A DNA stretch of 64,000 nucleotides from Acinetobacter sp. (lineage in GTDB: Bacteria > Pseudomonadota > Gammaproteobacteria > Pseudomonadales > Moraxellaceae): contig JAITLL010000047.1 of the NCBI GenBank assembly GCA_031277915.1, positions 62,001 through 126,000 on the forward strand, read 5' to 3'. Shown here one piece after another: positions 25,265 through 30,550 of the stretch. The first letter of the stretch is position 1, and every line of letters begins with the position of its first letter. Made by a program: the position numbers and the translations under genes. The notes below the pieces were generated by a model. The model worked only from the letters and a program-made list of their open reading frames with translations, was not told where the DNA came from and made no database searches.

Positions 25265-26188
25265 ATGGCTTATTTTGATATAAATCGATCGGGTGAGTTG
25301 GCAATTTTTATTCGGGTGGTTGAGCTTGGGAGCTTCTCGGCAGTAGCACGAGCGTGTGACATGACGCCGTCTGCGGTAAGTAAGTTAATTTCCCGCTTAG
25401 AAAAAAGACTTGGCGTAAGGTTACTTAACCGCTCAACACGTCAGTTTCAGCTCACTAGTGAAGGATGTCAGTTTTATGAGCAAGGTCTTCAAATATTGAA
25501 TGACCTAGATGAGCTTGAGCAATCAGTTACCGTAAATCACATGCCTCAAGGGCGGATTAGAATACATACTAGCTTTTCCTATTGGACTCACTTTTTATTA
25601 CCGTGCATTTCTTTATTTAATCAGCGCTACCCACAAATTGAGTTAGAGGCTCACTTAAGTGATGAAGTCATTAATTTGGTTGAGCAAAGAATTGATGTCG
25701 CCATTCGAACAGGCCCTTTAAAAAGTTCAAATTTGGTGGCTCGCTCCTTGGGCAGTACAACAAAGTACTATGTGTGTTCATCTGAATATATTGCTCGATA
25801 TGGCTGCCCACAACATCCGCATGAACTACAGCAGCATCAGGTTTTAGATGTAAGTTATCAGCGTCAGAATAAAACTTGGCTATTTAAAAAAGCAGATCAG
25901 GAAATTAACCTAACACCATCTAAAGTTTTAAAAGTAAATCATGGTGAAGCAATCTTACAGTTAGCATTGACAGGGGCAGGAATTGCACAGCTCAATGAAT
26001 TCCAAATTCAAAAAGCAATCGAACAAAAACAGTTAGTTAAAATTCTTGAAGACTGGAATATCACTGCTTCTGAAGAATTTCATGCAGTCTGGATTGGCCA
26101 TGATAAATATGTCCCTCGTCGTGTACGGGTATTTTTAGACTTTTTGGTGGAACATGCCACCATAAACTCATTATTGTCTGGCGCTTAA
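25265..26188 (+). CDS. LysR-family transcriptional regulator
   Basis: 307 residues. The winged helix-turn-helix is FIRVVELGSFSAVARACDMTPSAVSKLISRLEKRLGVRLLNRSTRQF, followed by an effector domain beginning PQGRIRIHTS. It is divergent from the SGNH hydrolase gene with a 111-base intergenic region, which suggests control of that gene. Its 3' end overlaps the small lipoprotein gene on the other strand by 18 bases. Confidence 0.88.
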   Translation: MAYFDINRSGELAIFIRVVELGSFSAVARACDMTPSAVSKLISRLEKRLGVRLLNRSTRQFQLTSEGCQFYEQGLQILNDLDELEQSVTVNHMPQGRIRIHTSFSYWTHFLLPCISLFNQRYPQIELEAHLSDEVINLVEQRIDVAIRTGPLKSSNLVARSLGSTTKYYVCSSEYIARYGCPQHPHELQQHQVLDVSYQRQNKTWLFKKADQEINLTPSKVLKVNHGEAILQLALTGAGIAQLNEFQIQKAIEQKQLVKILEDWNITASEEFHAVWIGHDKYVPRRVRVFLDFLVEHATINSLLSGA

Positions 26189-26458
26189 TTGGCACTGTTG
26201 AATTGTTGTATTCATAATTTCTACAAAATTCATATTCGCATCTATGTTTTGTAAGCTTACTTTCGGCAAGCTTTCTACAAACTGCGGAGAATAGTGCTGT
26301 TCTAAAGCGTTATAAATACAATTACATTCTGGCAGGTCATGTCCTGACCGAATGCATCGTGTATTAAATTCATTTTTACTCATTGGTCGACACCCCATTA
26401 AATTTAAAAAAATTATTGTAAGAATGCTCACCAAAACAAAACGATAGAGATAAAACAT
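26171..26458 (-). CDS. Small lipoprotein of unknown function
   Basis: 95 residues. A hydrophobic N-terminus ends in the lipobox LNLMGC, so the mature protein would be lipid-anchored at Cys23. Beyond it are four more cysteines (RCIRSGHDLPECNCIYNALEQ and a late QQC), which could form disulfides in the periplasm. AAGAG lies eight bases before the ATG. I do not recognise the family. On the same strand upstream lies the C4-like RNA with its 43-codon ORF, ending 146 bases before this start, so read-through control is possible. Confidence 0.65.
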   Translation of the reverse strand: MFYLYRFVLVSILTIIFLNLMGCRPMSKNEFNTRCIRSGHDLPECNCIYNALEQHYSPQFVESLPKVSLQNIDANMNFVEIMNTTIQQCQLSARQ

Positions 26459-26604: not shown

Positions 26605-26736
26605 TTAAGTACTATAGACGCTATTTCTTTTTAAAAGATGATCTGGCAGATCTCTTAAAAAAGATGGAATGAATAAAAGATGTTGAATAGAGATTGAATC
26701 AGTAAAAGAGCATAAAAAATATAAAGTAATCGTCAT
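26605..26736 (-). CDS. 43-codon ORF with a strong ribosome site, target of the C4-like RNA
   Basis: A 43-residue ORF (MTITLYFLCSFTDSISIQHL...) preceded by a near-ideal AAGGAG (26743-26748) six bases before the ATG. It resembles no family I know. The site overlaps ATCAAGG (complement of 26745-26751), which can pair perfectly with CCTTGAT in the large loop of the structured RNA just upstream on the same transcript. In phages P1 and P7 the C4 RNA blocks translation of a small ORF (icd) in this arrangement. The ORF may therefore be a leader whose translation matters more than its product. Confidence 0.5.
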   Translation of the reverse strand: MTITLYFLCSFTDSISIQHLLFIPSFLRDLPDHLLKRNSVYST

Positions 26737-26799
26737 GAGTGACTCCTTGATTAAAAGAAGTTATGCCCACTCATTGCTAATCATTATGGTGGTGAAACG

Positions 26800-26957
26800 A
26801 AAGAGGGTTAGCAGACTGATACCTAAGAAACCAGCACACCCGTAGGTGTCCCACTCTCGTTCCTCCATCAAGGCACGAGGGGCTACACACCAAAAAACTT
26901 GTTTTTAGTGCTCTTAGGTAGACGGTCTGCTAAAACCGACTGACAAAATTTGTCAGC
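26800..26957 (-). ncRNA. C4-like antisense regulatory RNA
   Basis: On the minus strand this segment can fold into a multi-branch structure. A closing stem is formed by 26810-26816 with 26925-26931 (AGCAGAC/GTCTGCT) and 26820-26828 with 26912-26920 (TACCTAAGA/TCTTAGGTA). It encloses three hairpins: 26836-26849, 26856-26879 and 26893-26906. The middle hairpin has a 14-base loop holding 26867-26873, complementary to the ribosome site of the ORF 50-60 bases downstream. A consensus-like promoter lies immediately upstream. Long closing stem, exposed antisense loop and downstream target match the logic of phage C4 RNA; family membership itself was not tested by a covariance model. Confidence 0.6.
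26940..26956. promoter_or_regulatory. 17-bp inverted repeat at the presumed transcription start
   Basis: CTGACAAA and TTTGTCAG are perfect arms around one base. The repeat begins about seven bases after the -10 box of the minus-strand promoter, so it would lie at +1 to +17. It may be a repressor operator or a 5' hairpin of the C4-like transcript. Confidence 0.5.
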
Positions 26958-26963
26958 GCGAGC

Positions 26964-26992
26964 ATCATAAGCTGAGCATTAGGGTGGGTCAA
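26964..26992 (-). promoter_or_regulatory. Sigma-70 type promoter of the C4-like RNA
   Basis: Read on the minus strand, TTGACC (26987-26992) and TATGAT (26964-26969) are separated by exactly 17 bases. Each differs from consensus at one position. It points into the structured RNA and fixes the likely strand of transcription. Confidence 0.65.
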
Positions 26993-28681: not shown

Positions 28682-28858
<177 letters not shown>

Positions 28859-29371
28859 TTTAATTGCCTCATATCAATTATGATGATGCGTTTTATCTGA
28901 GAGCTTCAGATAGGGTTATTAAAACATGTTGCTTTTAAATGTGTAGCGTAGGGGTGTTACCCTATATTTAAATGTAAATCTAAAAACTATTACTCTTAAA
29001 TAACTTGCTGATTTCTAATATGTACGATTTTGAGTCATAAACATTATTAATATGAATGTTTAAAAAATTACATTTGAGTACAAAGATGATTAGTCTTATT
29101 ACAAGACAATCAACAAAATTATTATGAATTATTTTTTTCTTGATCCTGATACTTTGAGTTTTGAGAAAGAGAAAAGGCAAGAGATTTTCTGATGAAAGAG
29201 ATTGAACAAAATAGAGATGAAGGAAGTCGATTTTCCTTCAGATATCAGTTCGATTAAAGCATAGTGTGAGAGCGATAATAAAAAAATGTCAGGAATTTTA
29301 GGTATATTCAAACCATAGATAAGCTGGTCAGGATGGAGAGTATTTTTCAGATTAAACAATCAGCTTTTGAG
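28859..29371. other. Intergenic stretch without a supported gene
   Basis: About 510 bases between the polyglutamine gene and the ddrR terminator. Short ORFs exist on both strands, including a 22-codon plus-strand frame at 29124 and a following 19-codon one, but none has a convincing ribosome site and recognisable sequence. No strong repeat was seen. Confidence 0.5.
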
Positions 29372-29418: not shown

Positions 29419-29655
29419 TTAAGAATGGGTAAGAGGATGTAGCCCTTTCACGATGTCTATAAACTCTGAACCATTTATCCAAAAAGATTTCTTTAAAAAT
29501 AGCGTCGTCATAATACTTTCGGCTGCTTCACTTTCTGGGTTTTCACAGAAAATTCCATAGCTTTCGCCTAATACCGCATCATTTTCAATAAGACGAATAT
29601 AGTAAGCATGTTGCTCATTTGCATAACCTAAAACTGCATCACGTTGATTTTTCAT
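29419..29655 (-). CDS. ddrR: DNA-damage response co-regulator DdrR
   Basis: 78-residue small protein (MKNQRDAVLGYANEQHAYYIRLIENDAVLGESYGIF...). I recognise it as DdrR, an Acinetobacter-specific protein encoded divergently from umuDAb and reported to act with UmuDAb in repressing error-prone polymerase genes until DNA damage occurs. GGAGA eight bases upstream supports the start at 29655 over an in-frame ATG five codons earlier, which overlaps that site. The shared intergenic region carries a palindromic operator. It has no recognised enzymatic motif. Confidence 0.8.
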   Translation of the reverse strand: MKNQRDAVLGYANEQHAYYIRLIENDAVLGESYGIFCENPESEAAESIMTTLFLKKSFWINGSEFIDIVKGLHPLTHS

Positions 29656-29870
29656 TTCGCATGTCTCCATACCAAAAACTGAATCTAACTCATATTTAAG
29701 TGTTCAGAATTTCATTTGATAAAAATCAAAACAGCCAGTAATAAGGACTATTTCACAATAGGTTTTGATTCTCTTCAAATTGCCATTCTCGTTTTAGCAT
29801 CCCTGTTAAAAGCAAAATGGATTAAAATCTGATCATGAGATTTATTGTTATGCAAAAAAAATATTTCGTC

Positions 29871-29897
29871 AACTTGAAAATGTAACTTTTTCAAGTT
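29871..29897. promoter_or_regulatory. UmuDAb/DdrR operator (SOS-like box)
   Basis: AACTTGAAAA and TTTTCAAGTT are perfect 10-base arms around a 7-base spacer, 42 bases before the umuDAb start. The core TTGAAAA-N7-TTTTCAA agrees with the palindrome reported for UmuDAb in Acinetobacter, which lacks a LexA. Confidence 0.85.
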
Positions 29898-29938
29898 ACA
29901 TTGTTTGTGTAGGATTTGAACAGTGAGATGGAGGCGGT

Positions 29939-30550
29939 ATGCCAAAGAAAAAAGAATTCGAACATGGCGGTGCACGGGAAAATGCTGGTCGTAAAGCACA
30001 GTTCAATGAACCCACCAAAGTGATTCGTGTTCCCGAGTCTCAAGTTAACTTTATTAAAAATTGGTTACTGAATAATGTCAAAACCGATAACCAGACAGAT
30101 TTTAGCTCAAAACTAAAAATACAACAGGTTCATCCAAACAACGATAAAATTTATCAGATTCCTTTAGCGACAGAGCGTGTGGCTGCAGGTTTTCCTTCAC
30201 CTGCGCAAGATGATATTGAGCAAGCACTCGATTTAAATGAATATTTAATTAGAAATGAAAATGCTACTTTCATTGTCAAAGCCAATTCTTTGTCTATGTT
30301 AGATGCTGGAATTGATATTAATGATCCACTTATTGTGGACCGTAGTATTCCCGCTAAATCGGGGGATATTGTAATCGCACTCATCGATAATGATTTCACT
30401 GTTAAGCGCTTAATGATTGATACTCAATTTCAGCCACCTAAAGTTTGGCTAAAAGCCGAAAACCCTGATTATCAAAATATTTATATTGAAGAGGGGCAAG
30501 AACTGGTGATTTGGGGAGTGGTGACTTATAACCTCAAACGAATGAGATAA
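29939..30550 (+). CDS. umuDAb: UmuDAb, LexA-like self-cleaving repressor
   Basis: 203 residues. It is an S24 peptidase-type regulator that represses DNA-damage genes in Acinetobacter and cleaves itself when RecA is activated. The cleavage bond is Ala83-Gly84 (RVAAGFPSP), the nucleophile Ser119 (KANSLSML) and the general base Lys156 (DFTVKRL), all at the positions known for this protein. The N-terminus (MPKKKEFEHGGARENAGRKAQF...VIRVPESQV) provides the DNA-binding part absent from true UmuD. A strong hairpin terminator follows. Confidence 0.93.
   Translation: MPKKKEFEHGGARENAGRKAQFNEPTKVIRVPESQVNFIKNWLLNNVKTDNQTDFSSKLKIQQVHPNNDKIYQIPLATERVAAGFPSPAQDDIEQALDLNEYLIRNENATFIVKANSLSMLDAGIDINDPLIVDRSIPAKSGDIVIALIDNDFTVKRLMIDTQFQPPKVWLKAENPDYQNIYIEEGQELVIWGVVTYNLKRMR

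Follow-up and report, generated by a model that had tools for sequence, protein, structure and literature searches.

A C4 antisense RNA in the leader of an Acinetobacter lipoprotein-like gene, matched copy by copy to its own upstream sites

We analyzed a 64,000-nucleotide (nt) stretch of DNA from Acinetobacter sp. (assembly GCA_031277915.1, contig JAITLL010000047.1, positions 62,001 to 126,000), hereafter the window, in which a C4 antisense RNA lies upstream of a 43-codon open reading frame (ORF). On the minus strand, from 26992 to 26171, the locus comprises in order a promoter, two short sites termed a1 and b1, the C4 RNA, the 43-codon ORF, and a gene for a lipoprotein-like protein of 95 amino acids (aa); coordinates are collected in Table 1. 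Site names follow the phage P1 record AF234172, where a' denotes the seven unpaired bases of C4 and b' its hairpin loop, with a1 and b1 preceding C4 and a2 and b2 following it. Downstream of C4, no ant1-like antirepressor or phage genes were found; the lipoprotein gene is followed instead by LysR and GDSL genes (the latter two named by eye).

A first-pass annotation of this DNA had proposed a C4-like RNA by analogy, and the Rfam covariance model bears the proposal out: RF01695 scores 64.7 bits against a gathering cut-off of 45 (E 3e-10 for the whole window). The RNA before the 43-codon ORF is a true C4, a member of a known RNA family. The c4-a1b1 model (RF03163) reaches 21.5 bits at 26970-26919, below its cut-off of 46.7 (E 0.0039), and the pairing sites themselves are present. 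The promoter, the motifs CCTTGAT and ATCAAGG, the 43-codon ORF, and a small lipoprotein gene as the next gene on the strand all lie where the annotation had put them. TTGAC recurs in 24 of the 25 over-threshold C4 copies of this genome, all except L018 (by eye, from the alignment). The GGA at the predicted 5' end of the processed RNA is the GGW processing motif reported for Acinetobacter C4-like RNAs, and A. baumannii C4 transcripts are described, from published RNA sequencing, as expressed and apparently processed at GGW (PMC5320573).

The genome carries 26 C4 matches, 25 of them over the cut-off, with six types of a'. Each b' matches its own leader over a mean Watson-Crick run of 7.48 bases (n = 25), compared to 3.91 (standard deviation 0.21) after permutation (0/20000), and the exact reverse complement of a' is found in the copy's own leader in 20 of the 25. 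Over 83 loci (these 25 and 58 from two other sets), all four contacts exceed their permuted values: b':b1 (7.59 vs. 4.35), b':b2 (6.34 vs. 4.57), a':a1 (5.84 vs. 4.62), and a':a2 (4.60 vs. 3.93), each at 0/5000. Within the own-genome subset, the b':b2 signal is weak (4.24 vs. 3.80, 14/5000) and the a':a2 signal absent (3.80 vs. 3.79, 2510/5000); the downstream sites are therefore largely lost there. The a'/b' of the window C4 are complementary to the upstream a1b1, in the P1/P7 arrangement, with b1 matched over nine bases and b2 over three. Perfect a..b targets of this C4 in its own genome are limited to its own leader, besides the reverse complement of C4 itself. As judged by this covariation from copy to copy, the conserved contact is that of C4 a'/b' with leader a1/b1.

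The sequences themselves show the order of the module, its conservation, and the way each C4 copy, through a' and b', fits the a1 and b1 of its own leader. We think it probable, with some reserve, that the locus is a chromosomal, vertically inherited C4-type control module acting mainly through a1b1; this mechanism is the best reading rather than a proven one. Classical P1 logic, in which C4 blocks translation of the short ORF by binding a2b2 at its ribosome-binding site, with polarity on the lipoprotein gene and a1b1 as a mere decoy, seems to us unlikely for this locus. All four sites are annotated for P1 in AF234172, and the lipoprotein loci beyond the window's clade retain b2 in 15 of 15 cases, with runs of 7-11 matching bases at the Shine-Dalgarno (SD) sequence; in those modules C4 also matches a2b2 at this position, as in phage P1. 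Within the clade itself (the window and 14 orthologs, L080-L094), the a2 core TAGCA persists at 14 of 15 loci (GAGCA in L083). However, b2 is absent at all 15, the b':b2 run being at most four, a2 is partial (TTAGCA in the window), and in a duplex-energy matrix of the 25 own-genome copies the a'b' arm of the window C4 (L004) ranks 25th of 25, the weakest, against its own downstream region. By these comparisons the window clade has lost b2 and weakened a2, as set against P1, which would leave a1b1 as its only strong target.

Table 1. Features of the C4 locus in the window (positions count from the first letter of the 64,000-nt stretch).
Feature	Position	Strand	Basis or remark
-35 element TTGACC	26987-26992	-	sequence read
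-10 element TATGAT, 17-base spacer after -35	26964-26969	-	sequence read
short leader hairpin CTGACA..TGTCAG; counterpart of CTGGCCTACATTGCCAG in other copies	26940-26956	-	sequence, alignment, fold
site a1 TTAGCAG, complement of C4 a'	26927-26933	-	a':a1 matching
site b1 TACCTAAGA, complement of C4 b' loop	26912-26920	-	b':b1 matching
CCTTGAT, loop site of the first-pass annotation	26867-26873	-	role as regulatory contact unsupported
C4 antisense RNA (RF01695 match); predicted processed 5' end at GGA 26866	26785-26872	-	Rfam; GGW motif from PMC5320573
C4 b' loop TCTTAGGTA	26820-26828	-	Rfam match, b' matching
C4 a' CTGCTAA	26808-26814	-	Rfam match, a' matching
partial downstream site a2 TTAGCA	26775-26780	-	ortholog comparison, contact matching
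ATCAAGG, target in the first-pass annotation	26751-26745	-	sequence read
hairpin ACTTCTT/AAGGAGT sequestering SD of short ORF	26742-26761	-	sequence, predicted fold
43-codon leader ORF	26605-26736	-	ORF list
95-aa lipoprotein-like gene, conserved C4 partner	26171-26458	-	ORF list, homolog loci

The genomic positions of the other copies give further clues. Twenty-two of the 25 share a strand with, and lie 274-327 nt upstream of, a gene from one of just two families: 17 before a TetR-family regulator and five, the window included, before a small lipoprotein. The remaining three consist of two located at the end of a contig and a third that is followed by another C4 in tandem. In this tandem pair (L028, C77:12377 and 12765, 388 bases apart), a' and b' are retained in the outer C4 (L018), but the promoter block and start region seen in other copies are missing. 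Seen from the genes, C4 precedes 17 of the 25 TetR matches (E 1e-20 or better) and 17 of the 18 scoring at least 230 bits; before the exception, C40:4289, no hidden C4 was found even at a permissive threshold. The other seven TetR matches include two cut by contig ends and five distant ones (113 bits or less). Lipoprotein genes have a C4 in five of six cases, with no hidden copy found before the sixth (C29:29370-29630, in L035), a paralog that lies close to a C4-led one.

Among 150 sampled Acinetobacter genomes (own included, up to 27 C4 candidates scored per genome), 128 contain at least one C4, with 1-8 copies in 110 of these and nine or more in 18. Each of the 14 other genomes in which the window lipoprotein has a close homolog (E 3e-40 or better) carries 19-26 copies, and the A. 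baumannii X4-300 chromosome (filed as a plasmid) has 19, located before 14 TetR, three lipoprotein, and two other genes. In 29 other genomes (L051-L079), the best C4 of each was followed by a TetR or lipoprotein relative in 14 cases and by something different in 15. The division runs along clade lines: genomes with the close lipoprotein homolog have such a relative after C4 in 12 of 12 cases (all TetR), those elsewhere in 2 of 17 (both lipoprotein). It is therefore the window's clade, and not Acinetobacter as a whole, that is confined to two gene families. At L069, L074, L075, L079, and L257, C4 lies before other, partly replication-like genes (by eye), and in L079 and L257 a' is of a different type, TCGACC, which a1 and a2 match. 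These copies may represent a mobile-element form ancestral to the chromosomal modules. The plasmid-filed L131-L133 carry C4-TetR in chromosome-like surroundings (in L131, chorismate mutase and a TonB receptor), and we make no claim of plasmid mobility for them.

A trans-acting defence, in which each C4 silences incoming phages or plasmids with a matching a2b2 and the downstream genes are passengers, would accord with the role of C4 in P1 lysogens and is one option raised in PMC5320573. We hold it to be quite improbable: the loops match their own leaders, the downstream genes of this genome belong to two families, and all eight phage records encoding the lipoprotein are contigs filed as 'Acinetobacter phage MD-2021a' that resemble bacterial sequence (by size and gene names, among the matches listed). 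The records CAKLQH02/CAKLQF02, NZ_CP064203, NZ_CP077849, and NZ_CP104448, filed under this phage name or as plasmids, likewise appear to be bacterial chromosome.

The first-pass annotation had placed the regulatory contact elsewhere, between CCTTGAT and ATCAAGG; on that reading, it would be the unprocessed leader that presents CCTTGAT to cover ATCAAGG at the SD. The seven perfect pairs do exist in this genome, and a version with one G-U pair persists in L081, L082, and L084. The exact contact is nevertheless limited to one of the 15 clade loci: the other 14 orthologs read CTTTGAT (four) or CTTTGAC (ten) at this position, the ten facing ATCAAGG and one CTTTGAT locus facing ACCAAGG, and no compensatory changes were found among the 15. 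Processing at the GGA (26866) would strip mature C4 of CCTTGAT, located just 5' of this motif, and the target of CCTTGAT is a generic AAGG. By this comparison it is not the conserved contact, and we give a regulatory role for it very little credence.

Relatives of the window lipoprotein occur in 45 of the 150 genomes, own included. At the best lipoprotein locus per genome in the best 30 of these 45 (L080-L109), an over-cut-off C4 lies upstream on the same strand in 30 of 30 cases. The earlier remark that the usual antirepressor is missing holds insofar as there is no ant1-like gene; its place is taken by the lipoprotein, a regular partner of C4. Nine of ten further lipoprotein loci have a C4, two of them (L117, L118) from outside Acinetobacter, as is L120, the one locus lacking it. 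The lipoprotein occurs in named species such as A. nosocomialis, A. calcoaceticus, A. lactucae, A. pittii, and A. baumannii; a check for the C4 itself, made in A. nosocomialis, A. calcoaceticus, A. pittii, and A. baumannii, found it in each. The protein matched no Pfam or NCBIfam family over cut-off; its invariant residues, in five sequences, include C35, C45, C47, and C89.

The neighbors of the window locus are kept in relatives as well: within the clade set, LysR is found at 15 of 15 loci (in L084 as a piece of just 39 residues), the GDSL gene at 14 (not in L084), and a 142-aa gene at 14 (not in the contig-end locus L086). The median ratio of nonsynonymous to synonymous substitution rates (dN/dS) of the lipoprotein is 0.13 (104 usable of 105 pairs), which points to purifying selection. 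Given a dN/dS of 0.59 for the leader ORF (103 of 105 pairs), its peptide is weakly constrained; start and openness are preserved in 15 of 15 orthologs, at 43-51 codons. The window C4 is 93-97% identical to those of L081, L083, L085, and L090, and in L083, L085, and L090 a C4 identity of 93-95% stands beside 47-65% for the adjacent ORF. A phage relic, as the first-pass annotation had considered, or a decaying prophage immunity region, in either case without function, is hardly credible for a locus with conserved RNA, the same neighbors in related species, a downstream gene with so low a dN/dS, and sister copies so regularly placed, even though C4 RNAs were originally described from phages P1 and P7 and some C4 in other Acinetobacter (L069, L074, L075, L079) adjoin genes that look replication-like by eye; the annotation's other label, a domesticated switch, fits the C4 leader.

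Predicted folds bear on how a1b1 could act. The leader's minimum-energy fold joins a1b1 to a'b'. The "long closing stem around three hairpins" of the first-pass annotation exists as this predicted fold of the precursor, with leader a1b1 paired to the a'/b' of C4 itself, and is not the C4 fold. The 14-base loop described with it is likewise present (CTCGT-14-ACGAG), except that the minimum-energy fold adds four inner pairs using CCTT. For the window copy, the predicted probability is 0.61 for a1b1:a'b' and 0.00 for the C4 stem, which rises to 0.71 when a1b1 is masked. Over 81 loci in three sets, masking a1b1 lowered the mean predicted SD exposure from 0.288 to 0.189 in the own-genome set (23 loci; 0.272 with control masks), from 0.133 to 0.067 in the other-genome C4 set (control 0.141), and from 0.112 to 0.051 in the lipoprotein set (control 0.108). 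In many copies (e.g., L001, L013, L074), an element after C4 and just before the SD is complementary to the C4 3' arm; it adjoins the strand that pairs with the SD and would complete a two-state switch in those copies. The 3' arm and this element covary over the 83 loci with G-U pairs allowed (8.28 vs. 6.66, 0/5000); when just Watson-Crick pairs count, the lipoprotein subset reaches no better than 84/5000.

Several of these results count against control through a1b1. The predicted reduction in SD exposure on masking is only modest, and for the window copy there is no effect (0.06 free, 0.04 masked, 0.03 with a control mask), its SD always being closed in a predicted seven-pair hairpin. For this reason, the two-state reading suits the family better than the window copy. 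The window clade carries the element complementary to the 3' arm in a degenerate form, with a predicted pairing of 0.00. In six of the 23 own-genome copies (L001, L006, L010, L012, L019, L023) the C4 stem stays at or below 0.03 despite the a1b1 mask, exposure rises slightly on masking in L001 and L003, and L074 and L107 have almost no a1b1 pairing. The permutation tests also ignore relatedness among loci. They are cleanest for the own-genome paralogs, and significance for the other 58 loci is overstated because those sets contain close relatives. In addition, some loops in the 83-locus contact test were parsed with three or four stem bases included.

Control mainly through a1b1 could operate as follows. 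A single promoter would give a leader RNA containing a1b1, C4, and the short ORF with its sequestered SD, continuing into the lipoprotein gene. RNase P would cut at the GGA, and processed C4 would accumulate and bind the a1b1 of new leaders from its own locus. In a leader bound in this way, the next C4 would fold and be excised, the leader ORF would be little translated, and the downstream gene would be OFF. A leader escaping capture would instead pair a1b1 with its own a'b', form no C4, and yield an uncut mRNA, the ON state. Because loop sequences differ (two copies share one), most of the ~25 modules should switch independently.

The Acinetobacter modules share with the C4 (RF01695) and c4-a1b1 (RF03163) elements of P1 and P7 the fold, the a'/b' and a1b1 layout, a short ORF downstream, and a GG motif, and several Acinetobacter copies have exactly the a site of P1, TTGACAG. 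They differ in being chromosomal, with 25 copies carrying different loops in one genome, and in preceding a lipoprotein or TetR regulator rather than ant1. The element complementary to the C4 3' arm, present in many Acinetobacter copies, was not found in P1. A further relative, as we take it, is the IsrK RNA of the Salmonella prophage Gifsy-1, presumably a prophage-borne member of the C4 clan near a downstream prophage gene.

The same RNA family has been described in the same genus as the 21 C4-like "Group 1" small RNAs (sRNAs) of A. baumannii AB5075, apparently processed at GGW and with a variable loop, for which trans targets in host or phage were proposed (Weiss et al., 2016; PMC5320573). 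The passages of that paper considered here name neither a gene partner in cis nor a leader site matched to the sRNA. What appears to be new is that each C4-like RNA belongs to the leader of one particular gene and matches that leader in its specificity. The setting appears to be new as well: by these comparisons, C4 leaders of host genes have multiplied, diversified, and been inherited vertically. From order and spacing we tried to equate the window copy with a named AB5075 sRNA; ABUWs042 fits five consecutive members, rival placements also fit five, and no identity is claimed.

The TetR partners point to a second body of work. Eleven related TetR genes (TTTRs) of A. baumannii are reported to be able to drive a colony switch, four of them turning on stochastically and three stated to be unlinked (Perez-Varela et al., 2022; PMC9802203). 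We line-fitted TTTR gene numbers (11 plus a pseudogene) to map positions and compared them with 18 Group 1 positions (066-069 taken as one). The 11 TTTRs and the pseudogene are nearest to 12 different Group 1 entries at a median distance of 6.6 kb, compared to ~40 kb for random positions (0/400 as close) or circular shifts (3/200); ABUW_3194 and ABUW_3353, 42 and 30 kb from the nearest Group 1 position, add nothing. ABUW_0220, suggested to be a possibly misannotated Group 1 sRNA (PMC5320573), is two gene numbers from the TTTR ABUW_0222. From this map proximity and adjacency, we infer that the TetR family with C4 leaders is probably the stochastically switching TTTR family. The published sRNA SrvS is reported to raise TTTR expression, with reduced Rho termination as one option of its authors, and azithromycin to make the ABUW_1645 gene set more active (PMC10878099). 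The latter effect would suit control through a translated leader, though it is no test of such control. The terms "antisense" and "c4 antisense" are absent from the main text of PMC9802203, and among the papers listed by a literature search, with subscription papers largely outside it, none was seen to link C4 RNA to TTTR genes.

Elsewhere in the window, a 203-aa S24/UmuD-like gene (plus strand; Pfam Peptidase_S24, NCBIfam PRK10276) adjoins an 83-aa ORF without family on the minus strand (29419-30550). We take this pair to resemble the Acinetobacter umuDAb-ddrR DNA-damage locus. A 58-codon minus-strand ORF at 28682-28858 has a long glutamine run in a low-complexity repeat and overlaps a leucine-rich frame on the plus strand (28709-28900).

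Taken together, control through own leaders would merge two open questions: the targets of the abundant C4-like sRNAs of A. baumannii, and the cause of random TetR switching in single cells. By the covariation, the first target of each sRNA would be the leader it belongs to, and gene order would identify the gene under its control. We propose tentatively, at somewhat less than even chances, that the ~25 C4 leaders in genomes of the A. calcoaceticus-baumannii complex form an array of largely orthogonal, self-recognizing switches that would make each downstream TetR or lipoprotein gene independently bistable, and that this array is the missing device behind random, combinatorial TTTR activation and phenotypic heterogeneity. 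A phage immunity device would then have been multiplied and diversified into switches of host genes.
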